The position numbers were made by a program, and so were the translations under genes. Below, one piece after another: positions 2,120 through 17,915 of a DNA stretch of 64,000 nt. Source of the DNA: a bacterium (GTDB lineage: Bacteria; Cyanobacteriota; Vampirovibrionia; Obscuribacterales; Obscuribacteraceae). Each line of letters opens with the position of its first letter. Positions within the stretch are counted from its first letter, which is position 1. The notes below the pieces were generated by a model. That model was given only the letters and a program-made list of their open reading frames with translations, had not been told where the DNA came from and searched no databases. The DNA lies in contig WGMS01000014.1 in the NCBI GenBank assembly GCA_016124935.1, positions 124,001 through 188,000 of the forward strand. The letters run 5' to 3'.

Positions 2120-4683
2120 GATTCTTTGCATATCAGTACGACAGCGGCCTTGCCTTTGGAGATCATTTTCTTGAAAGAGCGATGGTGCATAGACTTGACC
2201 AGGCTCTTCCGGGACATGCCGATTACGACCACGTCGCAATCTTGAGAGGTGCTTATCTCATTCAAGAGCTTAGTGTTCGAATTGGCGATGATCTTGGACT
2301 TCTCCACATCGAGATCATAGTCCACTCGAACTTTCTGGGCGAGCAATTCTATTTCGTTGTCGATGTCTTCACAAATGCCGTCTTTAGATACATTGCACAG
2401 ATTGATCGTCTCTCGGACATCGTCCTTGGTGATCACCGGCAAGAGGTCCACTGCCAGCCCGGCATCCAGAAATCTCGCCGCCGGGACAAGATAATTCTCT
2501 TTGCGTTCCGGGGTGGTCAGTCGGCTGGCCAGAACAACTCCGCAACGCGTGTTCTGCAAGACAGAATGGAGAAGATCGTCTCCTTTCTGTTCTCTTTTGC
2601 TTCCGGTCCAACGCATTAAAAATAGATTGATCTTTCTCTCTCTAATGGTGTCGGATATGGCATCACCTATGTCATGCGCCACTCTGATATTGGTGTGCAC
2701 CGGAATCTTGTACTGATGGCCGATATCTTCAGCCAGAGAAGAGATTACCCGTCCGTTCTCGTCCGAGAAGGTCGCTTCGGCAGGATCCATCTCTTTTGGT
2801 ATCAGTATTACATTGAGGCACTCCAGCTCATATTGCTTGTGTTTAGCCAGCCTGGCGGCAAGCTGGAGCAAGCTATCCGCCTGGGTAGGATCGGCCACCG
2901 CCACCAGAAGCCTGCCGACGCCGGCTTCCGGTGATCTGGTTTGATAGACCGTATAGCTGCTCGAATCTGATTGGCGCTTCATGCTCATCGCTTTGGATTC
3001 AGCTCGGACAATGTCTTTTTCGGTGATCACGCCCACTACTTTTGAACGTTCCACCACAGGCAGAACTCTTATCTTGTTACCTTCGAGAGTCATCAGGACA
3101 TGAGCAAGAGTATGGTCGGGTCTTACCGTGACCGGCTTGGGAGTCATGATACGTTTTATTGAAACATCCTGACTCAGGTTTTTTCTTCTGGCGTTTTCTA
3201 AATCGGTTCTGGAGACGATGCCGATAATCTTCTCTTCGTTGTCCAACACAGGAAAACCCCAGTTGGGATGCTCTGCGAGCTTTTCTGAGAGTTCTTTCAA
3301 GCTGGTGGTGGAAGGAAATGTGCGCACCGCTTTAGTCATAACATCCTCTGCTTTGAGGCGATAGAGCATGCCATGGGAAGGTTCGTCCTCTTTGAGGATA
3401 ATGCCCTGGAGCCGCAGAATATGGTCGTACATGGAGCCCGGATCGAGTTGCTCGGCAACAAGATAGGCGAGCACGCAACTGATCATAAGAGGCAGAACTA
3501 CGTTGAAATCGGTGGTCATCTCGAAAATGATCACCACCGCAGTCATGGGGCTTCTGGCGATGGCACAAAAAACCGCTCCCATTCCGACAATAGAGAAGGA
3601 GGCTATATTAGCGTGGCCGGATAGATAATGCTGAGCCGCTGCCACCAGGTGACCGAGGCAGGCTCCCATGGTGAGACTGGGAGCGAAGATACCACCGGGA
3701 GTGCCCGCTCCGACGGCCAGTGTGGTGAGTCCGAATTGGGCAAGAAAAGAGATGATTGTAATGTGCAGGTCGGCCGAACCTCTGACTAGAAGCTCCCTTA
3801 AACCGGCGGAATTGGCGAAGAAGGGAGGAAGTTGCATCATCACCAGTCCGGTAAGCAGTCCGGCCGCAGCCGATGATATGGGAATGGGAATTCGGGCGAT
3901 ATCACCGCGGAATTTGAGCGCCAGAACTTGCACTTTGTTGAAGAGCGCGCCGAAGGCACCGGCCATGATGCCAAGCAGGACATAGAATGGAATGTCATAA
4001 TAGGCAAAAGTGGCCCGTGGAGCGAGATCATTGAAATCAATGTCAAGACTCTGTACGCCGACCAGTCGTGAAACGACGGCGGCGACGAAGCAGGCGACCA
4101 CCGTCGTGCCTACGGCCAGCCCGGACATCCGGTTGAGAAGCACTTCCAGAACAAACAGGGCTCCGGCAAGCGGAGCGTTGAACGCCGCCGCCAGTCCCGC
4201 TCCTGCTCCGGCGGCGATAAGCTGGGTTCGATTGGCCGGTGTCGTTCTTATCCAGGTGCTGAATCGAGAGGAGATGCCTGCTGCAACTTGAACGGTAGGT
4301 CCCTCGCGACCGAGGGCAAGACCGGAGCCCAGGGAGATGATGCAGGCGATTAACTTGTATATGGCAGTGCGCATTCCCAGGGGAATATCGGCTCCGGCAA
4401 GATTGGCTTTGGTCTGGGCGATACCGGATCCTCTTATCTCCGGCGCCAGATAGCGAACCATCAGACCGGCCACTAATCCACCCGCCATGCCTATTAGCGG
4501 TAGAACAAACGGTCCGAATTCAGCCACTTTCTGCACACGCCAGGTGCCGACCAGACCGACCCCTTCCTTTAAGAGAACGGCGCCGGTCGCCGCCACCAGC
4601 CCAATAATGCATGCTTCGAAGACACCGATGTTCACCGGGGCAAGACTGGGTTTCTTACTTCCGGATTCCTCGGTTTCAAGCAT
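2107..4683 (-). CDS. ClC-family chloride channel/transporter with CBS pair and two UspA-like domains
   Basis: The 858-residue product has a ClC membrane domain (about 15-435), a CBS pair (about 445-570) and two UspA-like domains (about 590-725 and 730-858). ClC landmarks are GSGIA (usually GSGIP) near 85-89, GREGPT with the gating glutamate at 127, and GTPGGIFAP. The residue matching the internal proton glutamate of E. coli ClC-ec1 (Glu203) is valine here (V181, in FVLEVLL), as in known ClC channels; the paralogue upstream keeps glutamate. The start ATG at 4681-4683 overlaps the upstream ClC stop by 8 bases, so the two are probably translated together. Attaching CBS and UspA domains suggests gating by a nucleotide or by stress, which is inference. 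ClC assignment is secure; whether it is a channel or an exchanger is open. Confidence 0.92.
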   Translation of the reverse strand: MLETEESGSKKPSLAPVNIGVFEACIIGLVAATGAVLLKEGVGLVGTWRVQKVAEFGPFVLPLIGMAGGLVAGLMVRYLAPEIRGSGIAQTKANLAGADIPLGMRTAIYKLIACIISLGSGLALGREGPTVQVAAGISSRFSTWIRTTPANRTQLIAAGAGAGLAAAFNAPLAGALFVLEVLLNRMSGLAVGTTVVACFVAAVVSRLVGVQSLDIDFNDLAPRATFAYYDIPFYVLLGIMAGAFGALFNKVQVLALKFRGDIARIPIPISSAAAGLLTGLVMMQLPPFFANSAGLRELLVRGSADLHITIISFLAQFGLTTLAVGAGTPGGIFAPSLTMGACLGHLVAAAQHYLSGHANIASFSIVGMGAVFCAIARSPMTAVVIIFEMTTDFNVVLPLMISCVLAYLVAEQLDPGSMYDHILRLQGIILKEDEPSHGMLYRLKAEDVMTKAVRTFPSTTSLKELSEKLAEHPNWGFPVLDNEEKIIGIVSRTDLENARRKNLSQDVSIKRIMTPKPVTVRPDHTLAHVLMTLEGNKIRVLPVVERSKVVGVITEKDIVRAESKAMSMKRQSDSSSYTVYQTRSPEAGVGRLLVAVADPTQADSLLQLAARLAKHKQYELECLNVILIPKEMDPAEATFSDENGRVISSLAEDIGHQYKIPVHTNIRVAHDIGDAISDTIRERKINLFLMRWTGSKREQKGDDLLHSVLQNTRCGVVLASRLTTPERKENYLVPAARFLDAGLAVDLLPVITKDDVRETINLCNVSKDGICEDIDNEIELLAQKVRVDYDLDVEKSKIIANSNTKLLNEISTSQDCDVVVIGMSRKSLVKSMHHRSFKKMISKGKAAVVLICKESKEP

Positions 4684-7291
4684 TCGTGTTTCTCTTATAA
4701 ACCTGCTCGTATCTCGCGGCTGTGATGATTAGCGTGTAGCCTTCTATCTTTTCGAGGGAGCGCTTGAAGGCTCCTTTGTACATGGATTTTAAAAGAGACT
4801 TGCGGGGCATTCCCATGATCATAAGGTCGCAGTGTTCGCTCTCTTTCATTGCGCTCAGAAGCTTGGTCGGTGAGTTGGCGTCGACGGCCATCCGGTGTAT
4901 ATCGAAATCCGACTTCTGTTTGAGCTTTGTATAGGTAGTGTCGAATGCGGTGCTTTCGTCTTTGACCCGCGCCTTTTCGTGGACATCGAGCAAATGAACG
5001 CTGACCCCCTCGCTGCCCGAGCAGGCAACAAACACCCGGAACAGTTTGAGCGGCAACTCGTGTTCCAGATAACTGCCCACCGGAACCACCACATCTTGCA
5101 CCCCGGTTATGGCCTGACTGGCAGCTTGATTGACTAGAATCACCGGACAGTTAGTGTTTTTGAGAATAGTCTGGACTATAGAGTCTGCATTCTGGGATCT
5201 CTTTGCACCACCTCTAGCAGAATAGCGCATCAGAAATAGATCGGCGTCGCGCTCGGTTATCGACTCGGCCATGGCCGCGCCGACATCATGAGCGACTCGA
5301 ATACTGGTATGCACCGGAATTTCATGCTTTGCGCCCAGGGCTTCGGCCTTGGCGGCTATCTTTCTGCCGATACTGTCCGACACCTTAGATTCGGCGGGAT
5401 CTTTGTCTCTGGGGACTGTTATGATATGCACACATTCGAGCTCGAATTTCTTTGATTTAGCAATATCGGCAGCGATACCGAGCAGGTTCTCTGCGGTCTC
5501 GGGGTCGCCCACCGCCACCACCATTCTGCCCTGACCGGCTTCGGCCGACCGGGTCTGATAGACCACATAAGAGGAGCTCGAGGCTGTGGTTCTCAGTCCA
5601 ATAATCCTGGATTCGGCGCTGACAATATCTGAACGGGTGATGATGCCCACTAGCTTGCCCCTTTCCACCACTGGTATGCGGCTTACCCCGAATTTCTCTA
5701 TTAGATGAAGCACTCCGGACAGATACTCGTCCGGTCTTACTGTAATAGGCTTTGGTGTCATCACCTTTTCTGCGGAGGTGTCGTCAGGCAGTTTCTTTCG
5801 ATTCGACTCGATGATATCCGGCTTGGTAATGATGCCCACCGGCCGCATCTCTTCATCAACCACCGGAAAGCCCTGATGTCTGGAATTCTCGAAAAGTTCT
5901 CTCACCTCTTTGAGGGTCGCGGTCTGTTTTATGGACTCTATATTTTTCTGCATGAATTTGCGCGCCGGCAATCTGGTGATCAGGCTGTCTTCCCCTTCGC
6001 TCTCTTTGAGGTCGATGCCGCTCCAGTGCAGGAGCTGGTCATATAGAGAGCCCGGGTCAAGTCTTTCTGCCACTAGATAAGCGATGATGCAGCTGATCAT
6101 GAGAGGCAGGACCACATTGAAGTCCTGGGTCATTTCGAAAATGATCACCACCGCGGTGATAGGCACTCTGGCAACGGCACAGAAGACAGCGCCCATGCCA
6201 ACTACGGCGAAGGTGCCGCAGTCTCCACCGGATTGGAAGAAATAATTCTGAGTGATGGCCAGGAAATGACCGAGACAAGCACCCATGGTCAGGCTGGGGG
6301 CGAAGAGCCCGCCGGGAGCGCCGGAGCCATAGCTGATTACGGTGAGGACGAACTGGGCGAGCAGGGCCTGGCTGACTATGCCTACATTGAGTTCTCCTTC
6401 CACGAGCGTCTGTCGAAGAAGGGCATAGTTCTGCATAAACGGACAGATCATGAGAATCAGACCGGTGACGAGGCCGGCAAAGCCACAAGTTATATAAAAA
6501 GGCTTCCTCACTACATCCCTGGTAAAAGTCAGAGATTGGATAATGCATTTGTTAAATAGAGAGCCGATGATACCGGCAGCGATGCCAAGGAGAATAACGA
6601 AAGGGATGTCATAGGCAGTGAAAGTGGCTTTGGGCGCAAGCTCGGAAAAGTTGACGTCGAGGCTGTGCACACCGACCAGCCTGGATGTGACCGACGCCAC
6701 GAAGCAAGCCACTACGGTGGTGCCCACTGCCAGTCCTGACATCTTCTGGAGAAGCTCTTCGAGGACAAAAAGCACTCCGGCGAGGGGGGCGTTGAAAGCG
6801 GCAGCCAGACCGGCTCCTGCCCCGGCTGCGATAAGCTGGATGCGGTGGGTGGGAGAGGTCCTAATCCAGAGGCTCACCTTGGAAGAGAGAGCGGCGGCCA
6901 CATGCACTGTCGGTCCTTCCCTTCCCAGAGCCATACCGGAGCCCAGGGAGGCGATACAGCCCACCAGTTTGACCAGGGCCAGCCTGATTCCAAGAGGCAT
7001 CTGGATGCCGTAGAGAGTAGCTTTGGTCTGGGGAATGCCGCTGCCGCTCGCCTCAGGCACGACAAACTGTAGAAGCAGACCTGCAACCACTCCGCCGGTC
7101 AGGCCGATGACCGGCAGGAGCCAGGTGTGATCGTGGGAGAGCGATACTCTAATCGAGCCCACCAGGCCGACACCGTGTTTGAGAATGACAGCGCCTAATG
7201 CCGCCACCAGACCGATCAGGCATGCTTCGAGAATGCCGATATTCACTGGCTGGTGGTGATGTTGAGAATCTTTCTTAGCGCCTTTGACCAT
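4676..7291 (-). CDS. ClC-family H+/Cl- antiporter-like protein with CBS pair and two UspA-like domains
   Basis: The 871-residue product has the same order as its downstream paralogue: ClC membrane domain (about 15-435), CBS pair (about 440-570), two UspA-like domains (about 585-720 and 735-865). It keeps the canonical GSGIP (83-87), GREGPT with gating Glu125, and FVLEELL with Glu179 at the proton-glutamate position, so proton-coupled exchange is plausible. GAPGGLFAP is also present. The gene starts at ATG 7289-7291 and its last 8 bases overlap the start of the second ClC gene. Two overlapping paralogues that differ at the coupling residue may form a heterodimer, since ClC proteins are dimers; that is inference. 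Confidence 0.92.
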   Translation of the reverse strand: MVKGAKKDSQHHHQPVNIGILEACLIGLVAALGAVILKHGVGLVGSIRVSLSHDHTWLLPVIGLTGGVVAGLLLQFVVPEASGSGIPQTKATLYGIQMPLGIRLALVKLVGCIASLGSGMALGREGPTVHVAAALSSKVSLWIRTSPTHRIQLIAAGAGAGLAAAFNAPLAGVLFVLEELLQKMSGLAVGTTVVACFVASVTSRLVGVHSLDVNFSELAPKATFTAYDIPFVILLGIAAGIIGSLFNKCIIQSLTFTRDVVRKPFYITCGFAGLVTGLILMICPFMQNYALLRQTLVEGELNVGIVSQALLAQFVLTVISYGSGAPGGLFAPSLTMGACLGHFLAITQNYFFQSGGDCGTFAVVGMGAVFCAVARVPITAVVIIFEMTQDFNVVLPLMISCIIAYLVAERLDPGSLYDQLLHWSGIDLKESEGEDSLITRLPARKFMQKNIESIKQTATLKEVRELFENSRHQGFPVVDEEMRPVGIITKPDIIESNRKKLPDDTSAEKVMTPKPITVRPDEYLSGVLHLIEKFGVSRIPVVERGKLVGIITRSDIVSAESRIIGLRTTASSSSYVVYQTRSAEAGQGRMVVAVGDPETAENLLGIAADIAKSKKFELECVHIITVPRDKDPAESKVSDSIGRKIAAKAEALGAKHEIPVHTSIRVAHDVGAAMAESITERDADLFLMRYSARGGAKRSQNADSIVQTILKNTNCPVILVNQAASQAITGVQDVVVPVGSYLEHELPLKLFRVFVACSGSEGVSVHLLDVHEKARVKDESTAFDTTYTKLKQKSDFDIHRMAVDANSPTKLLSAMKESEHCDLMIMGMPRKSLLKSMYKGAFKRSLEKIEGYTLIITAARYEQVYKRNTNA

Positions 7292-8921: not shown

Positions 8922-9320
8922 ATGAGAGTATTGATCTGCCTTCTTCTTGCTTTGACCTTTATGGCGCCGGCTTTTGCCAAGTCTGTCGAGGTCGATACCG
9001 ATAAAGTCCTGGTTGTGATGGTTTATTCTAATAGTTGCAAGAAATTCTGCGACGAAGTCAGACCGATGCTTGCCAAAATAGAAGATAAATACGGCGATAA
9101 AGTCGCCGTTCATATGCTCGGTATCAGCGGAGACGACCTCGCCAGGTCTAAAGAGATGGAGAAGAAGCTGGGCATCTCCGGATTTTTACCGGGCATGATC
9201 GATCACGTTCCTGCGGTGGGAATCTTTTCGCCTAAGCGGAAACTGGTGAAAGAGATAATCAGCTCCAAGAAGTTCGACCAGTACACCAGGTATATTGACG
9301 TCGCCCTGAAGGCTAAATGA
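8922..9320 (+). CDS. Exported thioredoxin-fold protein with CxxxC motif
   Basis: The protein starts with a clean signal peptide (MRVLICLLLALTFMAPAFA, cleavage after AFA) when read from ATG 8922; a GTG at 8910 would add four residues. The mature part has the thioredoxin pattern: a strand KVLVVMVYS, then NSCKKFCDEV, then GVP-like HVPAVGIF. The cysteines are spaced C-x3-C, not the usual C-x2-C, so it may not be a standard disulfide oxidoreductase; metal binding or a modified redox site is possible. Its TGA stop overlaps the ATG of the downstream membrane kinase (ATGA), which implies coupled translation and perhaps a shared sensory job in the periplasm. Confidence 0.75.
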   Translation: MRVLICLLLALTFMAPAFAKSVEVDTDKVLVVMVYSNSCKKFCDEVRPMLAKIEDKYGDKVAVHMLGISGDDLARSKEMEKKLGISGFLPGMIDHVPAVGIFSPKRKLVKEIISSKKFDQYTRYIDVALKAK

Positions 9321-11272
9321 CCACATCCATGAATCTGAGCCCGGTTCTGATGCGTCGGCTTATTTTAATCAGCCGGTTCGCCGGGGCTTGCGTGGCAGTT
9401 TTGGCTCTGCTTGTCGTAATCGGCTGGGCAACAGGCAATTATTCTCTGACCAGACTTATCCCGGATTTCGGCGGCAGTCTTCCTTTTGCCGGGCAACTGC
9501 ATTCGGCTGCTTCGCTCAATTTATTCTTCCTCGGGGCAGGGCTGCTCTCTTTCGGCTTCTTCGAGGGCAAAATCAATAAAAGGGCTGCGATGATTTTAGC
9601 CTGTCCGGTGATTTTATCGAGTCTGCTTGCTTTGTACGAAGCTTTTTCCGGGACTGTATTGGACAGCCTGCGTCTCTGGGCACCGACTCCCGCAGCGCCC
9701 GGGGTGACCTATCCCACTCCGATGATACCGGAGGTGGCTTTTACCTTGCTCTGTCTGGCCTTCGCCCTTGTCCTGATCGGACGAGATTCTGAAAAGGCTG
9801 TCAGTCCCTCCCAGATAGCAGCGCTTCTATCTATCCCTGTGCCGATTCTCATTCTCTTTGGGGCTGCCACCAGATCTCCCAAGCTCTGTGCCCTGGGCGG
9901 CTGTTTTGAGATGTCTCTTGCTTTTGCTCTGCTCACTCTAGTGCTTGCGGTGGGAATACTCTTCTCGCGACCGGATCAGGGCATGGCGCGGCTTCTCTCC
10001 AGCACCTCCGGTGGTGGCAGGCTCTGTCGGCGGGCTCTGGCGGTGCTGGCATTTCTGCCGGGTTTGCTAATTTTGAGGACCATGGCGGTCAATTACAAAG
10101 TTGGTGAGGAAGTTCTTGTAGAGGAGCCGCTCAGTTGGGCTCTTTTCGGATTGATATTAGTGGCGATTGTCGCTTATATGGTGGTCTCGGGGGCGCGTAG
10201 CCTGGAGGTGCTCGAGACGCAGAAAGAGGAGATTGTCGATAGGTTGCTCGAGACTGAGCAAGCCCTTTCGAACAGCTATAAAGTGAGCGTAGATAACTCC
10301 CAGGCGATTACCGGAATAAGATACAAGCGTATCTGTTTGATTTGCAGCCAGGACTTCGATGAAAGCCTTACGATATGTCCTCTGGATGGAGGCGATCTGG
10401 AGAGAGTTCTGGACGAATCGCTCGAAGGCCTCCTATTTGCGGATAAGTACCAGATCGATTCTCTGCTCGGCACAGGTGGTATGAGCAGCGTCTATAAAGC
10501 ACATCATGCGGATCTTAAGAAGGACTTCGCCATCAAAGTTTTGAAAAACGCCTCTAGTACGGAGTCTTTGAAGCGATTCAAGCGGGAAGCCCAGGCTACC
10601 AGTAGTCTAGATCACAAGAATATTGTCGGTGTCTCCGATTTTGGTATCGCTCCGGATGGGCGGTCTTATATTGTGATGGAGTATGTAGAGGGTGAAAGTC
10701 TCTCGGAGCTCATTCACCGAATGGGGGCGCTCACTCCTAAAGTCTCCAGTTATCTTATCACTCAGATTTGTGATGGATTGATTCATGCCCACGAAGCAGG
10801 CATCGTGCACAGGGATCTGAAACCCGCCAATATTATGCTGGTCAAGAATAAACAAGATGGTATCACCGCCAAGATAGTCGACTTCGGTCTTGCCAAAATA
10901 CTGGATGACGGCATGGACAAATCGCAGCAGCTGACCCAGACCGGGGAATGTTTCGGCAGCCCACTTTATATGAGCCCCGAACAGTGTCTTGGTACCAAAG
11001 TGGATCATAGAGCCGATATCTACGCGCTCGGTTGTATCGCCTACGAGTGCCTGACCGGCGCGCCGCCGATTGTAGGACGCAATATCCTGGACACTTTCAA
11101 CCGCCATCTCAACGATCCTCCCCCGCCTTTCCCACAGGAGTTGAATGTTCCCAGGGAATGGGCGGCGATTATTTTTTCCGCCCTGGCCAAGAAGGCGGAG
11201 CATCGTCCTGCCAGTGTCAGAGAGTTCAAAGAGGCTTTTAAGAAGCCCTTGACCCAGAGGTCGACTACATAG
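9317..11272 (+). CDS. Membrane Ser/Thr protein kinase with polytopic N-terminus
   Basis: Of 651 residues, about 1-300 form seven or eight hydrophobic segments. A Cys-rich ribbon follows (CLICSQDFDESLTICPLDG, near 340), of the kind found ahead of kinase domains in these bacteria. The C-terminal Hanks-type kinase domain (about 375-640) is complete: glycine loop GTGGMSSVYKA, catalytic lysine in FAIKVLK, HRDLKPAN, metal-binding VDFGLA, and MSPEQC. No extracellular sensor domain follows the kinase, so the polytopic region is the likely sensor. It is coupled by a 4-base overlap to the exported thioredoxin-like gene. The last 8 bases overlap the end of the convergent beta-barrel gene. Confidence 0.9.
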   Translation: MTTSMNLSPVLMRRLILISRFAGACVAVLALLVVIGWATGNYSLTRLIPDFGGSLPFAGQLHSAASLNLFFLGAGLLSFGFFEGKINKRAAMILACPVILSSLLALYEAFSGTVLDSLRLWAPTPAAPGVTYPTPMIPEVAFTLLCLAFALVLIGRDSEKAVSPSQIAALLSIPVPILILFGAATRSPKLCALGGCFEMSLAFALLTLVLAVGILFSRPDQGMARLLSSTSGGGRLCRRALAVLAFLPGLLILRTMAVNYKVGEEVLVEEPLSWALFGLILVAIVAYMVVSGARSLEVLETQKEEIVDRLLETEQALSNSYKVSVDNSQAITGIRYKRICLICSQDFDESLTICPLDGGDLERVLDESLEGLLFADKYQIDSLLGTGGMSSVYKAHHADLKKDFAIKVLKNASSTESLKRFKREAQATSSLDHKNIVGVSDFGIAPDGRSYIVMEYVEGESLSELIHRMGALTPKVSSYLITQICDGLIHAHEAGIVHRDLKPANIMLVKNKQDGITAKIVDFGLAKILDDGMDKSQQLTQTGECFGSPLYMSPEQCLGTKVDHRADIYALGCIAYECLTGAPPIVGRNILDTFNRHLNDPPPPFPQELNVPREWAAIIFSALAKKAEHRPASVREFKEAFKKPLTQRSTT

Positions 11273-12323
11273 TTCGCACGTAACGCAAAGAGATACTGGC
11301 CGGCGCCACCAGACCAAGCTGCCGGCGCGGATTGAATGCACCGGGGACGATACTGCCGTCGGGCAGCCGCTGGGGCGGTCCGGGAAGGGCGGTGGCTCCC
11401 GGGTTGATATGCTGACCGATGGTTATCGGCACTTCCAGAATGAGCATATGACGTTTATATTGATAGGAGAAGCCCGGCGCCACCGCCAGTGCCCATCCCG
11501 GTTGTCTGAAGCCGCGATTAGATCCGATCAGGTCTCTGCTTCTCAGTCCGTCCCAGTGCAGGGTTCCTCTAAGGCGCAAGCCACGAAGCATGGGCTTGTC
11601 CCAGGTCTTGGGAATGCGCGATGAGAAACCCGCTCTCAGGGTCCAGGTATCTGCCACCGAGTTCTGCAAACGGGAGAGAAAAATGGGATTGAGCGGTACG
11701 CCTAAGCTCTCAATAATCGAGGGGGTGCCGTTGGTTACTCTGGGGTTGGCGAGATAAATCGCCGAGGAGAAAAGAGTGGTGCCTCTAAGCAAGTTCGGAC
11801 TGCGCAGTACTTTATAAGCGTCATAGCCGAATAGAATGCCGACACCGCCGTCGCCGGGCAATGCCGCCGGAGGATAGGCGGATCTTCTACGGGGGTCGAG
11901 ACCCTGTTCATTGGGGATGACCCGTCGAGCTTCCCAGCTGCCGGTGGGCAGTTTGATACCCATGCCCAGGGAGACATTCTCGAAGGGATGTTCGGAGGGG
12001 TCGAGCACGAAAGACTGGCCGTAGAGACTGAGATCTCCGACACCGTTTATGCCAAAGCCCCGACGGGTGCCCTGGTCTATGCCCAGGGGCGGCAGTATGG
12101 TCGAAAAATTGTTGAAGACTATCGGCAGGGTGCCGGTCAGTCTCACCCGGTTGTTGACTTTATAGAGCGCGGTGACATCCAGGGTGCTGAGCCGGATTTT
12201 AGGACCCCATAGCTCGGTGAAGCTCCGGTTATAGCGCGAATTGAAATAGGAGCGATCCGCAGAAGCGTAGCGCCAGCCGGCAGAGAGTTGAAATTTTCCT
12301 CCAGTCGAGCCTAACCCGGGCAC
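11265..12323 (-). CDS. Outer-membrane beta-barrel-like protein, body of an interrupted gene
   Basis: The readable part is 352 residues from a GTG at 12323. The sequence alternates polar and hydrophobic residues with many Gly, Tyr, Arg and Asn, and contains repeated strand-turn patterns, as in transporter-like outer-membrane barrels; it ends in SISLRYVRTM, a plausible last strand. No family is recognised. As annotated it has no signal peptide. In the same frame, 21 bases upstream, a TGA follows a perfect signal peptide (see the adjacent entry), so the original gene was probably 11265-12431. The end overlaps the kinase gene by 8 bases, tail to tail. Confidence 0.6.
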   Translation of the reverse strand: MPGLGSTGGKFQLSAGWRYASADRSYFNSRYNRSFTELWGPKIRLSTLDVTALYKVNNRVRLTGTLPIVFNNFSTILPPLGIDQGTRRGFGINGVGDLSLYGQSFVLDPSEHPFENVSLGMGIKLPTGSWEARRVIPNEQGLDPRRRSAYPPAALPGDGGVGILFGYDAYKVLRSPNLLRGTTLFSSAIYLANPRVTNGTPSIIESLGVPLNPIFLSRLQNSVADTWTLRAGFSSRIPKTWDKPMLRGLRLRGTLHWDGLRSRDLIGSNRGFRQPGWALAVAPGFSYQYKRHMLILEVPITIGQHINPGATALPGPPQRLPDGSIVPGAFNPRRQLGLVAPASISLRYVRTM

Positions 12324-12465: not shown

Positions 12466-13923
12466 CTAGATAATAAACCAGAACGTGCTGCCTTCGCCTT
12501 CTTTCGAGGTGACGCCAATCTCTCCGCCATGCTGCTCCACGATTGTTTTTGATATGGGCAAACCCAGTCCGGTACCGCCTTTTTCGACCTGATCTGTTGT
12601 GTCTACCTGTTTAAATCGTTCGAAGACATCGCCCAGTTTCTCTTCGGGAATACCGCGCCCTTTGTCCGTGACCGAGATCCGAACCCGATCTTGATCGAGG
12701 GCTTCGGTCTTGATCACTATCGATGACTGGGGCGGAGAAAACTTGATGGCGTTGGAGAGAAAGTTGATAAGGACCTGAACCAGTCTATCTTTATCTGCCA
12801 CCATTTTTAAATTTGGGTCGATCATCTCTAGTTTGATCTCATTCCTTTCGGCGAGCTGCTTCACCGAGGCAATCGATGCGTAGATTATCTCCTGGGTGCT
12901 GGTCTCTTTTATGTCCAGATCAAAGGCGGCACCCTGCATATTTTCGATGCTCAGTAAATCGTCGATAAGCCTTATTACCCGGTCTGTGTCATGAGCGGCC
13001 ATTGTGAGCCTGGATTGAGCTTTATCTGTCAGCTCGGCGATTATGCCGTGGGAGAGATTATGAAGCGAGTACTGTACCTTGGAGAGCGGCAATGAGAGCT
13101 CGTAGCGAACCAGCTCGACCAGTTGTTTGCGCTGACGGTCCACTCTAGCCAGATCACTGGCGGTGGCATGAAAGACGCGATCGAGCTGGCTGATTTCGTC
13201 ATCGCCGCCGACCGGTTCCGCCAGGGCCTCTCTTCTAAGCAATCTCCTTGTGTTGTTCAGAACAACCTTCAAGCGCATGGTGGTGCTGGCGGTGAGATAA
13301 ACAGCCAGGCCCACCGTAAGGACAATATTGAGAATGACACCATATATGATAATCCGCTTGATTTTAGAATCGAAATAACGCTGCCGTTTGCCGACAATCG
13401 CCTGTCTTTCCTTCTCCATATCCAGCAGGTCGTCTACGTTTCTCAGGGCAAGGGTGAAGAAGTCATAGACCTTGTCTATACGAACATCAGAGTCGACGTA
13501 GTTTTTTACGTCTATCTCCTGTTCGAACTCTTCTGTAAACATATCGGAGAGTCTATTGAGAGTCTTCGAACAGCTCTCTTTTATAGTAGCGGCATTTTTA
13601 GCTCTTTCAGAGTCTCCTTTGCATAACTCTATCAGCTCTCTGCCGGCGAGTTCCGCTTTGCGTTTTTCGTCCATGAACTTCATCTGTAAAAAGGGCAGAC
13701 GGTTGGAGTTGTAGAAAACGGCTATTAGTTCGCAATCAATTAGTTTAGTCACCACCGAGGTGGCCGCCGAGACGACCTTTTTAGATTCGATTACTTTGTA
13801 GACTTCTTGCTCTGATTGATAGAGAGTGACGGCAAGGATAATGTGAAAGACCAGCTGGAAGACCGTGGGCAGGAATATAACCACAAGACCTTTAAGCAGC
13901 AATTTAGACCTTGGATTACTCAT
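12466..13923 (-). CDS. Histidine-kinase-like membrane protein with Tyr in place of the phospho-acceptor His
   Basis: The start is set at ATG 13923, giving 485 residues, because it gives a normal membrane N-terminus and overlaps the upstream kinase stop by 8 bases. It has two membrane segments (about 10-35 and 190-212) around a 150-residue helical sensor, a HAMP-like part (about 213-260), a dimerisation helix pair and an ATPase domain. The H-box reads LVRYELSLPL at 271-280, so Tyr274 sits where the histidine should be. The ATPase is intact: N-box NFLSNAIKF (387-395), G1 DKGRGIP (420-426), G2 GGTGLGL (449-455). It should bind ATP but cannot autophosphorylate in the usual way. DivL of Caulobacter is a known kinase-like protein with Tyr at this place. 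It pairs with the overlapping upstream gene, which has the reverse defect. Confidence 0.88.
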   Translation of the reverse strand: MSNPRSKLLLKGLVVIFLPTVFQLVFHIILAVTLYQSEQEVYKVIESKKVVSAATSVVTKLIDCELIAVFYNSNRLPFLQMKFMDEKRKAELAGRELIELCKGDSERAKNAATIKESCSKTLNRLSDMFTEEFEQEIDVKNYVDSDVRIDKVYDFFTLALRNVDDLLDMEKERQAIVGKRQRYFDSKIKRIIIYGVILNIVLTVGLAVYLTASTTMRLKVVLNNTRRLLRREALAEPVGGDDEISQLDRVFHATASDLARVDRQRKQLVELVRYELSLPLSKVQYSLHNLSHGIIAELTDKAQSRLTMAAHDTDRVIRLIDDLLSIENMQGAAFDLDIKETSTQEIIYASIASVKQLAERNEIKLEMIDPNLKMVADKDRLVQVLINFLSNAIKFSPPQSSIVIKTEALDQDRVRISVTDKGRGIPEEKLGDVFERFKQVDTTDQVEKGGTGLGLPISKTIVEQHGGEIGVTSKEGEGSTFWFII

Positions 13924-15385
13924 TGGCTTTCCTCCGGTAAGGAAGCCAGATGGTAAATGCGGTGCTGGTACTCTCTGAAGAGAGATCGAGCTTGCCGCCA
14001 TGGGCGGTGACAATCGCTTTTGCCAGGGCGCCGCTCAATACATCGAGATGCGGGCAATTCAAACTGGTCAGTTGCTGCGAGGTCTTGCTGAAGTATTGCA
14101 GGCGCTCCTGCTCGTCTATGGGTGGTCCCTGATCCTCGATGATGATGTTGATACCGTCCTTACCGGAATTAACCAGGACCAGAGTCTCTCTTCCCGCGGA
14201 CATTCTCGCCTGGGAAGCGAGAAGCAGGATAGTGAAAGCTTTCTCCAAAAGCATACTATCACCGACGGTGGTGAGTTCGACAGAAATTTCTTCGGAATTG
14301 GCTTCCATATTCAGAGTCGGACAAACCGAACTCCATTCATTTAGCACCCTTTCATAGCTTTGCCGAATTAAATCGGGCAGATTGACATTCTCTTCTTTAA
14401 TCACCTGGGCACCGCTCTCCAGCCTCTCGACCAGGAGCAAATCATTGACCAGATGAATCAGGCGGGTGAGCTGGGTCTGGGTCTCGTCGACCGAGCGATG
14501 CAAGGTCTGAGGATAGTCGCCCATAGCGCCTGCCTTGAGCAGGGTAAGGGTACCTTGTATGGATGTAAGCGGCGTCCTCATCTCGTGGCTGACCACGCCG
14601 ATAAGCTGCTCTTTGAAGCTCTCGAACTCCATTATCTCACTGGCTGTTTGATGCAGGGCCTGATCTAATTCGGCAATCTCATCATCGCCCCTCATGGGCG
14701 GATTCAGCTCCATTCTGGCGCCCAGTTTGAAGGTATTGGTCAGAACGTTGTCCAGTCTTTGCGAAATATACCTGGCGAAGTAACGCGCTAGAAAAAATGT
14801 TATCGTGATATTGACTACGGCTCCAAAGAAAAGCAGAAGCTGAATCCTCAAGATAGAGTCTCGAAAGAGCTGGGGCTCGACAGTCTGAATCTGTCTCTCT
14901 CTTTCGATAATGGTTTTGCTCGAGCCCTCGGAGTGGATCAGTAGAAGATTGCCGACATTACCGCTGGTGGCGAAGAATGCCCCGAGGCGGTTTTTAGGAT
15001 CGGAGTTCACCACATTCTCCTGGTTTTTGATCCAGTCCCTGGCCGAAGCAGCTAGCCGGGCAGCTTCCGATCGTTCCATATCGTCATCCCTGGTCAGTCT
15101 CATCAACCTGGCGCTGCTCGAACGAATCTCTTCGTGGGATTCTTCTAAGCGCGCAAGAAGATCCGGCCTTCTCGAGACGTTATAGATTATGGCGGTGGTG
15201 GTCGATGCGGCAATCTCTTTGAGTATGGTCTCGACGGCGATGATGATATCGTGGGAGCGCATCTCGCGATTGATATGGGTGGCGGTCTGGTCTATCTGAC
15301 TGACCAGAACGGCGACGAATAACGCTTCGAAAAGAAGCGGTACCGAGACTATCATCAAGCCCTTATGAAGTATCGAGAGCTTCAT
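13916..15385 (-). CDS. Histidine-kinase-like membrane protein with H-box but degenerate ATPase domain
   Basis: The 489-residue protein has the same plan as its downstream neighbour: membrane segments at about 8-30 and 180-203, a helical sensor between them, a HAMP-like region (204-252), then a dimerisation domain with a canonical H-box, VVSHEMRTPL, with His267. The ATPase domain is poor: no asparagine at the N-box position (FTILLLASQARM, 384-395), G1 is DQGPPI instead of DxGxG, and the G2 glycine-rich loop is replaced by LDVLSGALAK. It probably cannot bind ATP well and may be phosphorylated in trans. The start ATG is at 15383-15385. No response regulator or other acceptor is encoded nearby. 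Confidence 0.88.
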   Translation of the reverse strand: MKLSILHKGLMIVSVPLLFEALFVAVLVSQIDQTATHINREMRSHDIIIAVETILKEIAASTTTAIIYNVSRRPDLLARLEESHEEIRSSSARLMRLTRDDDMERSEAARLAASARDWIKNQENVVNSDPKNRLGAFFATSGNVGNLLLIHSEGSSKTIIERERQIQTVEPQLFRDSILRIQLLLFFGAVVNITITFFLARYFARYISQRLDNVLTNTFKLGARMELNPPMRGDDEIAELDQALHQTASEIMEFESFKEQLIGVVSHEMRTPLTSIQGTLTLLKAGAMGDYPQTLHRSVDETQTQLTRLIHLVNDLLLVERLESGAQVIKEENVNLPDLIRQSYERVLNEWSSVCPTLNMEANSEEISVELTTVGDSMLLEKAFTILLLASQARMSAGRETLVLVNSGKDGINIIIEDQGPPIDEQERLQYFSKTSQQLTSLNCPHLDVLSGALAKAIVTAHGGKLDLSSESTSTAFTIWLPYRRKANE

Positions 15386-15461: not shown

Positions 15462-17915
15462 CTAGCGGGCGCCTGCCTCGATGAAGCGAATCACCAGATC
15501 GGCCAGTTCTTGCTCGGCTTTGTCTACCAGGGCTTGATTGCCCCCTGTCTTGGCTTGCGCTAGAAGCTTCCTTGCCTCTCCTATTACCGCAATTCCTCGA
15601 CCGAATTCCTCACCGGTTCTGGCTACTTCCTTGAGACCGATGCTGCCATCCGGTTTCTCGTAGGTTCTCACCATGACATTGGCGGGTAGTCCCTCTACCT
15701 TCATCTCGGAGACCAGAGACTCCAGCTCTTCGGGGCTGTCTGTCAGGTTTATCTGGGCAAAGATAGCGTTTTTGTCGATCGCTTTTTGAACCGGCTCCGT
15801 ATTCCAGGCGGCACGCTCAGCCATCTGGCAGGGAGCGCACCAGTCTGCTCTGAAATCCATAATCAGTGGACGACCGGATTCGTGGGCTGCCTCTATGGCT
15901 TCGTTGAGTTTAGCCAGGCTGTCTACCTTCTCGAATCTGGTTTTTTCAGGCGTCTTCTCGACTTTGTGATCCGAGGGGCTCTCCGGCTCTTTTTGCACTT
16001 CCGGATAGGCTGCTTTCTCCATCATTTCAGAGACGCCTTTATAGGGCAGCAACTCTCTCAGTCTGTCGGCTGGAACTCCTCTGGCTTTAGCCATCTCTAC
16101 CACCGGTCCGGCAATCTCTGCTGTTTCCATTAACTCGGGATGACGGCGGGCACCTTCGGCTATCGCTTGCATTCCCTTTTCGACCGAGGCCGCATCCGGA
16201 CCCTGGGCCATCTCGAAGAGCCCCTTGTTTATGCGCAGATAGCCATCGGCTGCACCGAGTCGTCCAAGACCCTCGATATTGTTTTTGATTCCGTTTAAAG
16301 TATCCGGCGCAGCATCGGGTTTGGCTTGTTCTTCGGCCAGGCTCTTTTGAAACAATGCAGTCACTCTAGTGAGATCTCCCTGGTCGACAGCGTCTGCCGC
16401 TGCTATGGCAGAATCGTAGACTGCCAGCCGGGCTTCGTAGGTGTTGGCTGCCTGGATTTTGGCTAGAGCTTCCTTTATACTTCCCTGGGACTCTTTCAAG
16501 CTCTCGATGGCGGCGAGGTCCTCATCAGAATCCTTTAATTCTACATTCTCAGGTTCTTTCTCAGGTTCTTTCTCAGGTTCTTTCTCCGGCTCTTTCTCAG
16601 GTTCTCTTTCTTGAGTATCCTCGGAAGTTTTCTCAGCTGTTTCGGCTTTCTCCTTCTCTAGCTCCTGTTGTCTTTCTTTCAAATTGAGGTCCGGGAAGGC
16701 TTTGTCCAGTTCGTCGCCGGCATAAATCGTCTTTGCCATGCGGTCTATGTAAGATGGCTGTTTAGCCAGTTCTGGATGTCTTTCGAAGGCGTCTTTGATG
16801 TCTTTGACACCATCTTCAAGGTCACCTTCGTTTAGATGAAAGAGACCTCTTTCGAATCTGGTGATACCATCGGCGATGTCCATGTGGTCGATGGTGGCAC
16901 GATAGTTGGTCAGATTGTCGACCTTGCTCTTGTCGGCTCCGTCTCCCTTCTTCTTCTCTTCTTCCAGCTCTCGATCGAGAAACTGCTTGACCAGGGCGGT
17001 CTCTTTCGGGTCGACCTGGTCGGCTGTCTCTACTGCTTTGTCAAACAATTGTTTACGCTGATCTTTGGTAAGACCGACATGCTCGCCTTCGCCTATCTTG
17101 AATTGAAGCATACGCTCCACCGCTTCGCGATAGTCGCTGTCGGCACCGACATTTTCATTTCTTCCAGCGACAATTGAGCCGAAGATGTCTTCGCGCTGTC
17201 GATTGATATGCTCCAGCGCGGTCAGCTCCGGGCTCCTGGGCTTGTCGTCTTGTTCCGGCTTGTCTTTGACCTCGGGTCTCTCTTCCGGAGTGTCGCCTTC
17301 GTTTTGCTTCGTCTCCGGCTCGACTGCATCGGGCACCTTGAACTTGCCTTTGTTCTGGTCCATACGACGCTGGGCATACTGAAGCTGGTCTTTGATAACC
17401 GAAGAGATCTCTCCTCTAGCACCCCAGGTATTCGCCACCAGTTTGCCCAGGTGCGGCTTGCCGTCCTGATCCGGCGTCAGGGCGAATATGCCCGTGTAAG
17501 CCATATCAGGATCGTTGCCCACGTTCTTCTCGGCATACTGACCGAGTTCGGTGGATTTATCGACTCTGTTTTTATCCACGAAAATGTAGACGGCGTCGTT
17601 GCCACCATCCCGCGAACCCTTTGTCGGTCCATCTATGAGGCTTTTCGTGTGTGATGTCTTTTCCGAACCGAAGACCACCACCACCGGTTTGCCGGTACGG
17701 GCTGCTTCGTTGAATCCTTCTTGCCAGTTTTTGTCCGTGTACTTGAATTGACCCTCGACGTCCTTGTTATAGGCGCCCGAGTCTTTCCAGTCGTTGGCAG
17801 CCTTACCGTGATCCACTATCTGAACATTGTCGGATATCCGTGGCGTCGAATCATTGATCCGGCGAACAGCAGGTATGTCTTGCCTGGGGTCAGGATTATA
17901 TAGATTTGGATTCAC
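15462..17915 (-). CDS. Large protein with two thioredoxin folds and Glu/Pro-rich linker
   Basis: The 817-residue product starts at GTG 17915; an in-frame TAG lies just upstream, which limits the choice. Residues about 60-190 look like a thioredoxin-like domain without cysteines (KPVVVVFGSEKTSH). A long acidic helical middle, perhaps TPR-like, holds a five-unit EKEP repeat (about residues 437-454). The C-terminal domain (about 665-800) is a clear thioredoxin with FRADWCAPCQ and a cis-proline region GLPANVMV. There is no signal peptide, so it appears cytoplasmic. A redox role tied to a protein-binding scaffold is plausible; the partner is unknown. Confidence 0.75.
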   Translation of the reverse strand: MNPNLYNPDPRQDIPAVRRINDSTPRISDNVQIVDHGKAANDWKDSGAYNKDVEGQFKYTDKNWQEGFNEAARTGKPVVVVFGSEKTSHTKSLIDGPTKGSRDGGNDAVYIFVDKNRVDKSTELGQYAEKNVGNDPDMAYTGIFALTPDQDGKPHLGKLVANTWGARGEISSVIKDQLQYAQRRMDQNKGKFKVPDAVEPETKQNEGDTPEERPEVKDKPEQDDKPRSPELTALEHINRQREDIFGSIVAGRNENVGADSDYREAVERMLQFKIGEGEHVGLTKDQRKQLFDKAVETADQVDPKETALVKQFLDRELEEEKKKGDGADKSKVDNLTNYRATIDHMDIADGITRFERGLFHLNEGDLEDGVKDIKDAFERHPELAKQPSYIDRMAKTIYAGDELDKAFPDLNLKERQQELEKEKAETAEKTSEDTQEREPEKEPEKEPEKEPEKEPENVELKDSDEDLAAIESLKESQGSIKEALAKIQAANTYEARLAVYDSAIAAADAVDQGDLTRVTALFQKSLAEEQAKPDAAPDTLNGIKNNIEGLGRLGAADGYLRINKGLFEMAQGPDAASVEKGMQAIAEGARRHPELMETAEIAGPVVEMAKARGVPADRLRELLPYKGVSEMMEKAAYPEVQKEPESPSDHKVEKTPEKTRFEKVDSLAKLNEAIEAAHESGRPLIMDFRADWCAPCQMAERAAWNTEPVQKAIDKNAIFAQINLTDSPEELESLVSEMKVEGLPANVMVRTYEKPDGSIGLKEVARTGEEFGRGIAVIGEARKLLAQAKTGGNQALVDKAEQELADLVIRFIEAGAR
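16551..16610 (-). repeat. 12-bp tandem repeat, five units, coding
   Basis: Five 12-bp units based on aggttctttctc (plus-strand reading) lie inside the double-thioredoxin gene and encode the EKEP repeats. Units one to three are identical and the last two carry substitutions. The unit length keeps the frame, so copy-number change would only lengthen or shorten the linker. Confidence 0.9.

Follow-up and report, generated by a model that had tools for sequence, protein, structure and literature searches.

Sensor histidine kinases are homodimers in the textbook view, and the usual way to tell cis from trans phosphorylation is to mix two engineered mutants, one altered in the His and the other in the ATP site. 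In Bacillus subtilis, Spo0B carries a DHp domain with its histidine together with a degenerate ATP domain. RetS and GacS of Pseudomonas aeruginosa form a hetero-oligomer of two sensor kinases, in which RetS is said to control the otherwise complete kinase GacS and not to complement a missing half. DivL of Caulobacter (PDB 4q20), also of the HisKA type, has a Tyr where the acceptor His would be. The CheA3/CheA4 kinase of Rhodobacter sphaeroides has its ATP domain and its acceptor histidine on separate proteins; both are needed, and the histidine protein also has phosphatase activity (PMC3591291). A split of EnvZ in vitro has been reported as well (PMC3591291), and in Corynebacterium glutamicum native ChrS and HrrS heterodimerise (PMC9491836).

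Here we describe a pair of HisKA-type genes, U (upstream) and D (downstream), from the 4.4-Mb draft genome (G000) of a member of the Candidatus Obscuribacterales clade (Melainabacteria-type Cyanobacteria). The stretch of DNA that was analysed, referred to as the window, is 64,000 nucleotides long. Judged from sequence, U and D very probably make up one sensor built of two specialised partners.

The overlapping kinase genes U and D

The features of the two genes are as follows.

13916..15385, minus strand: gene U, 489 residues, putative histidine-donor subunit (open reading frame, Pfam, five orthologues)
14411..14614, minus strand: DHp (HisKA) domain of U, residues 258-325 (Pfam HisKA, 63.3 bits)
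14585..14587, minus strand: His267 codon of U, predicted phospho-acceptor (reading of the frame, alignment of five orthologues)
14195..14233, minus strand: degenerate N-box of U, residues 385-397, without the Mg-binding Asn (family HMM, alignment)
14114..14140, minus strand: degenerate G1 box of U, DQGPPI, with D418 and G420 kept and the second Gly gone
14021..14068, minus strand: site of the missing G2 box or ATP lid of U (family HMM, alignment)
12466..13923, minus strand: gene D, 485 residues, putative ATP-donor subunit (open reading frame, Pfam, five orthologues)
12937..13131, minus strand: DHp-like domain of D, residues 265-329 (Pfam HisKA, 11.6 bits, sub-threshold)
13102..13104, minus strand: Tyr274 codon, acceptor position of D (Asp, Glu, Asp and Asp in the four other orthologues)
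12739..12768, minus strand: intact N-box of D, INFLSNAIKF (family HMM, orthologues)
12646..12666, minus strand: intact G1 box of D, DKGRGIP (family HMM, orthologues)
12559..12579, minus strand: intact G2 box of D, GGTGLGL (family HMM, orthologues)

The domains of U are ordered as a transmembrane segment, a helical CHASE3-like sensor (26.3 bits in Pfam, slightly below the cut-off), a second transmembrane segment, a HAMP-like region, HisKA and a degenerate CA domain. D has the same plan, with the acceptor His gone and the CA domain intact. U and D can be aligned end to end (residues 4-480, 24% identity) and are therefore paralogues sharing one domain plan. The stop of U and the ATG of D overlap by 8 nt (13916-13923); the overlap in the orthologous locus of genome G006 is also 8 nt, with the starts as read.

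The kinase loci collected for this work were used to make an HMM of the family, with which the motifs were read. In U the H-box is VVSHEMRTPL, the N-box position reads ILLLASQAR, and no G2 loop follows the G1 sequence; the HATPase_c match of this protein is marginal (27.9 bits against a cut-off of 26.4). Since D418 and G420 remain, some residual nucleotide contact by U is possible. The H-box of D reads LVRYELSLPL, its N-, G1 and G2 boxes are all present, and its HATPase_c match is strong (107.9 bits). HisKA is sub-threshold for D in Pfam, yet the family HMM aligns both its DHp and CA domains, so that homology to HisKA and HATPase_c is detectable in each protein. Neither polypeptide thus has an acceptor His and an ATP site of its own, and jointly they have one set. 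The first-pass annotation had described a normal H-box and an eroded ATP domain in the upstream gene, an intact ATP domain and a Tyr in place of the acceptor His in the downstream gene, and an 8-base overlap between two genes of common domain plan; all of these readings were borne out.

Orthologues were sought in 50 genomes of the family (E <= 1e-60 for U, E <= 1e-100 for D). Both genes are found in the same five genomes, drawn from three genera, and always next to each other; neither occurs without the other. The other carriers are mostly metagenome-assembled genomes of Candidatus Obscuribacter or Obscuribacterales, and one is labelled Proteobacteria, apparently in error. His267, Glu268 and Thr271 are invariant in all five U orthologues, and U thereby carries the HE/DxxN/T phosphatase motif that PMC3591291 describes for the histidine protein. 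None of the five D orthologues has the His, while their N, G1 and G2 boxes are invariant. The first-pass annotation had counted an intact His in D or an intact ATP site in U among the findings that would weaken a split kinase, and neither turned up in any orthologue, so that the acceptor His and the ATP-binding site sit on different proteins in all five pairs. On conservation of the lost N-box of U, a check that it had proposed, the ATP site is broken in 5/5, but the U protein of G006 retains the N-box Asn, without G1 or G2. The Tyr, the other residue that it had proposed to check, is not conserved: the acceptor position of D is Tyr, Asp, Glu, Asp and Asp across the five, and Tyr274 was rejected as a functional residue. 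Identity between orthologues is 79-81% in the DHp domain of U, 37-49% in its CA domain and 65-73% in the CA domain of D; selection has therefore retained the His-bearing half in U and the ATP-site half in D.

The conserved neighbourhood comprises a ribokinase-like (rbsK-like) gene and an 817-residue thioredoxin-domain protein upstream; downstream it has a Ser/Thr kinase together with a small thioredoxin-like gene. The 817-residue protein (window 15462-17915, minus strand), which has charged repeats besides its thioredoxin-like domain, lies directly upstream of the kinase pair, keeps this position in all orthologous loci and is possibly tied to the sensed signal. On the other side lie a membrane Ser/Thr kinase (9317-11272, plus strand), syntenic in three orthologous loci, and a 352-residue protein without a Pfam match (11265-12323, minus strand), syntenic in one.

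Complementary kinases in other loci and genomes

Sensor kinases are abundant in these genomes, with 45 HATPase_c matches in G000 and about 120 in G022. From the regions around the HATPase_c matches of G000, 37 kinase domains were read. Three lack the His and have an intact ATP site, three others have the His and a dead ATP site, and these six are arranged as exactly three tandem pairs, of which one is that of the window, one lies on contig C32 (L001) and one on C29 (L065). Arg replaces the acceptor His in both of the latter, and the gene order is reversed on C29. The 37 domains include four tandem pairs of kinases on the same strand; if the labels are placed at random, three such complementary pairs arise in 32 of 46.5 million placements (about 7e-7). 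Apart from these, a kinase-like protein of about 780-819 residues, present in two families (L070:5439-7895 on C21 of G000; L159:2194-4524 in G036), is a doubly dead pseudokinase, in which the acceptor His is replaced by Asp or Asn and the ATP site is also lost.

The window pair is not unique and belongs to a recurrent type. Complementary loci number 22 in 13 genomes of nine genera, half of them (11) tandem pairs and the other 11 single polypeptides. The latter, of 865-1233 residues (L078, L088, L091 twice, L092, L094, L095, L123, L124, L126 and L148), combine in one chain a His-less, ATP-competent kinase with a His-bearing kinase whose ATP domain is dead or absent. Over the 22 loci the acceptor position is occupied by Tyr, Asp, Glu, Asn, Ser, Arg, Gly, Gln, Leu, Phe or Ala; because Tyr is not conserved, selection has been for loss of the His and not for a DivL-like Tyr. 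The N-box Asn survives in the dead ATP domain of L091(4384), L092, L127 and the G006 orthologue; the domain itself is missing or unrecognisable in L095, L124, L126 and L128. In L128:9656-12150 (G022:C5), the most reduced version found, the His half is just 341 residues long (sensor and DHp, with a stop before any CA domain) and overlaps or abuts the ATP half. For the fused orthologue pair L091/L092 (78% identical), dN/dS is about 0.04 overall, which indicates purifying selection, although the value is rough because synonymous change is near saturation. Nonsynonymous change in this pair is lowest in the DHp domain of the U part (0.077), 0.111 in the CA domain of the D part, and highest in the dead CA domain of the U part (0.232).

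Intact double kinases also occur, as diverged neighbours (L087, L141, L142) and as fusions (L089, L090, L093, L149). Near-identical intact tandem kinases at L096:4911-8048 (G026:C212) appear to be a fresh duplication, and could represent a first stage on the path to complementary pairs. In the trees, which were repeated without the motif columns, complementary L095 groups with intact L089/L090/L093 (SH-aLRT 100 for the first half, 98 for the second) and complementary L127 with intact L141/L142 (support of 99 and 84 for its two halves); in the tree without motif columns, L148 and L078 fall close to L149, an intact fusion. A single origin of all pairs is not supported, L095 and L127 being nested among intact relatives. 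Intact fused or tandem relatives were likely the starting state, and the two halves were lost independently in several lines. Most D-type domains fall into a single group (SH-aLRT 96 without motif columns), to which the still His-bearing L149 also belongs, so that the 8-9 changes given by parsimony are an approximate count of losses. Such a pattern is expected if a tandem duplicate heterodimerises first and each partner then loses one half of the active site.

The rule that every ATP-dead kinase has a complementary neighbour is false. In the three censused genomes it holds for 10/13 His-bearing, ATP-dead kinases (3/3 in G000, 5/6 in G022, 2/4 in G005); the census of His-less kinases in G022 was partial and took in only those with weak or missing HisKA matches. 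The ATP-competent member of L125 retains a His in an atypical H-box (AHHLQTSL). At L150:2036-4434 (G005:C9) a 351-residue sensor-DHp protein without His or CA domain is in tandem with a 458-residue His-bearing, ATP-dead kinase, so that neither partner has a working ATP site, and L151 is a lone His-bearing, ATP-dead kinase adjoining a TPR protein. His-less kinases without a dead partner are found at L135, L137 and L086:3990. ATP-dead kinases can therefore have other roles too. No complementary pair was found in G036, the one genome of a neighbouring family. Elsewhere in G022 (C1:70166-72172), three or four short HATPase-only genes, perhaps anti-sigma-type regulators, lie by a canonical kinase.

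Proposed mechanism and alternative explanations

We propose that a single sensor histidine kinase, an obligate heteromer, is made up of U and D as its specialised subunits; both span the membrane, and they would associate by way of the helices of their sensor, HAMP and DHp regions. The CA domain of D would bind ATP and phosphorylate His267 of U in trans, as the complementary retention of motifs suggests; from U the phosphoryl group would go on to a response regulator that is not linked to the pair, and the HExxT motif may let U dephosphorylate this regulator as well. The pair would have originated when a homodimeric kinase was duplicated in tandem and the two copies then lost complementary halves of the active site, a path apparently taken repeatedly in Candidatus Obscuribacterales, often with subsequent gene fusion and in the extreme with deletion of the dead ATP domain. 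To this explanation as a whole, which rests on sequence comparison, we give a probability of about 0.8. The idea of one kinase split over two proteins, put forward in the first-pass annotation, gains support from the co-occurrence of the genes, the complementary orthologues and the other pairs of the same pattern, and the natural fusions would be indirect support for a heterodimer.

No receiver domain or response regulator was found in the window, as the first-pass annotation had noted for the vicinity of the pair, which is therefore an orphan with its regulator encoded elsewhere. An OmpR-type regulator (receiver and Trans_reg_C; L065:3596-4315) directly follows the C29 pair (L065:6098-7897 and 4341-6146), and receiver genes adjoin L091(14083) (L091b), L094, L124 and L126, the regulator beside the single-chain L126 being divergent; the type is therefore linked to ordinary two-component output.

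The main problem for the trans model is geometry. The nearest solved relatives of U and D, namely HK853, VicK and WalK, phosphorylate in cis (PMC11371814, PMC3582566). In printed alignments the DHp hairpin of U equals that of HK853 in net length and that of D is one residue longer than that of WalK, so both are close in length to the hairpins of cis kinases. In a strictly cis heterodimer D would be unable to reach the His of U. A passage in PMC5956149, citing Ashenberg 2013, has loop handedness and not length alone decide between cis and trans; cis-handed loops would defeat the simple trans model.

It is also conceivable, though in our judgement unlikely, that D is a pseudokinase of the DivL or RetS kind, which binds ATP without phosphate transfer and controls U or another kinase allosterically, with U acting as a phosphatase or a phosphotransfer protein charged by another kinase or, as in Spo0B, backwards from the regulator. 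The AlphaFold models are mediocre, monomeric and based on five-sequence alignments (pLDDT 66.8 for U, 71.8 for D); in Foldseek searches the highest target-normalised TM-scores of the moderate-confidence U model are with RetS (0.78-0.79), known for control by hetero-oligomers, and DivL is among the matches of both proteins, while the D model is placed with ZraS, WalK and HK853. L150 and L151, which have no active ATP domain, likewise indicate that phosphatase or phosphotransfer-only members exist. Against this, every catalytic box of D is kept in the five orthologues and in other D-type proteins, beyond what nucleotide sensing needs, whereas DivL, according to a passage in PMC9491836 citing Reisinger 2007, functions on CckA without its ATPase domain. 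A pseudokinase D would also leave unexplained why a His-less protein adjoins, or is fused with, an ATP-dead, His-bearing one.

That fusion, seen at 11 loci, bears equally on the proposal that U and D act apart with other partners and are adjacent by tandem duplication only. The expanded kinase family of these genomes offers many possible partners, but the two genes co-occur strictly and complementary losses are concentrated in neighbours, and we consider such separate action very improbable. Decaying duplicates or assembly artefacts have in their favour that the source genomes are metagenome-assembled and that the CA domain of U evolves fast relative to its DHp domain. However, the frames are open in five independent assemblies at 43-50% identity, synteny is kept, dN/dS is low in the fused relative and the losses are complementary and not random; this explanation was rejected and has next to no probability.

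Comparison with known split kinases and pseudokinases

The open-access literature describes split CheA kinases and pseudokinases, and no description of complementary HisKA-type pairs or of their single-chain versions was found in it. Within one bacterial order, a natural equivalent of the engineered mixes of His and ATP-site mutants has apparently become permanent on many occasions, and has been fused into single chains as well; trans phosphorylation and loop handedness could be tested on this natural material. It would also be a well-populated example of subfunctionalisation, from homomer to obligate heteromer, in which intermediate stages can still be seen. The type is a candidate for sensing that takes two inputs and responds like a switch; bistability is a predicted possibility for split bifunctional kinases (PMC3591291). 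We lean towards the view that obligate heteromeric kinases, as two proteins or as single chains, evolved repeatedly in Candidatus Obscuribacterales by complementary degeneration of tandem kinases, and that a pure ATP-donating half and a pure His-bearing half for phosphotransfer, phosphatase activity and regulator binding fixed one-way trans phosphorylation, which may give switch-like two-input signalling.

DivL, RetS and evolved ChrS are partial analogues (PMC9491836). DivL is like D in its acceptor-site Tyr, but D differs in that its Tyr is not conserved, its ATP site is strictly kept and it has a dedicated adjacent partner; the first of these differences makes DivL a weak precedent. Evolved ChrS with HrrS resembles U and D as a truncated kinase with an intact paralogue, but it is laboratory-evolved, a heterodimer of the truncated form was undetected and HrrS is complete (PMC9491836). 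RetS and GacS resemble the proposed complex of U and D in being a hetero-oligomer of two sensor kinases. Spo0B, unlike U, is a soluble phosphotransferase charged by Spo0F and has no ATP-competent, His-less partner.

CheA3/CheA4 would be the functional precedent for the division of labour that is read here from the sequences of U and D. It is a soluble kinase of the CheA type with P1 on a separate domain and with whole domains missing; the P1 Hpt and P5/CheW-like domains of that family are absent in U and D, in which Pfam detects only HisKA/HATPase_c and the CHASE3-like sensor. U and D are instead HisKA-type transmembrane sensors, homologous over their full length and degenerate at points and loops, and they belong to a type that recurs and is often fused.
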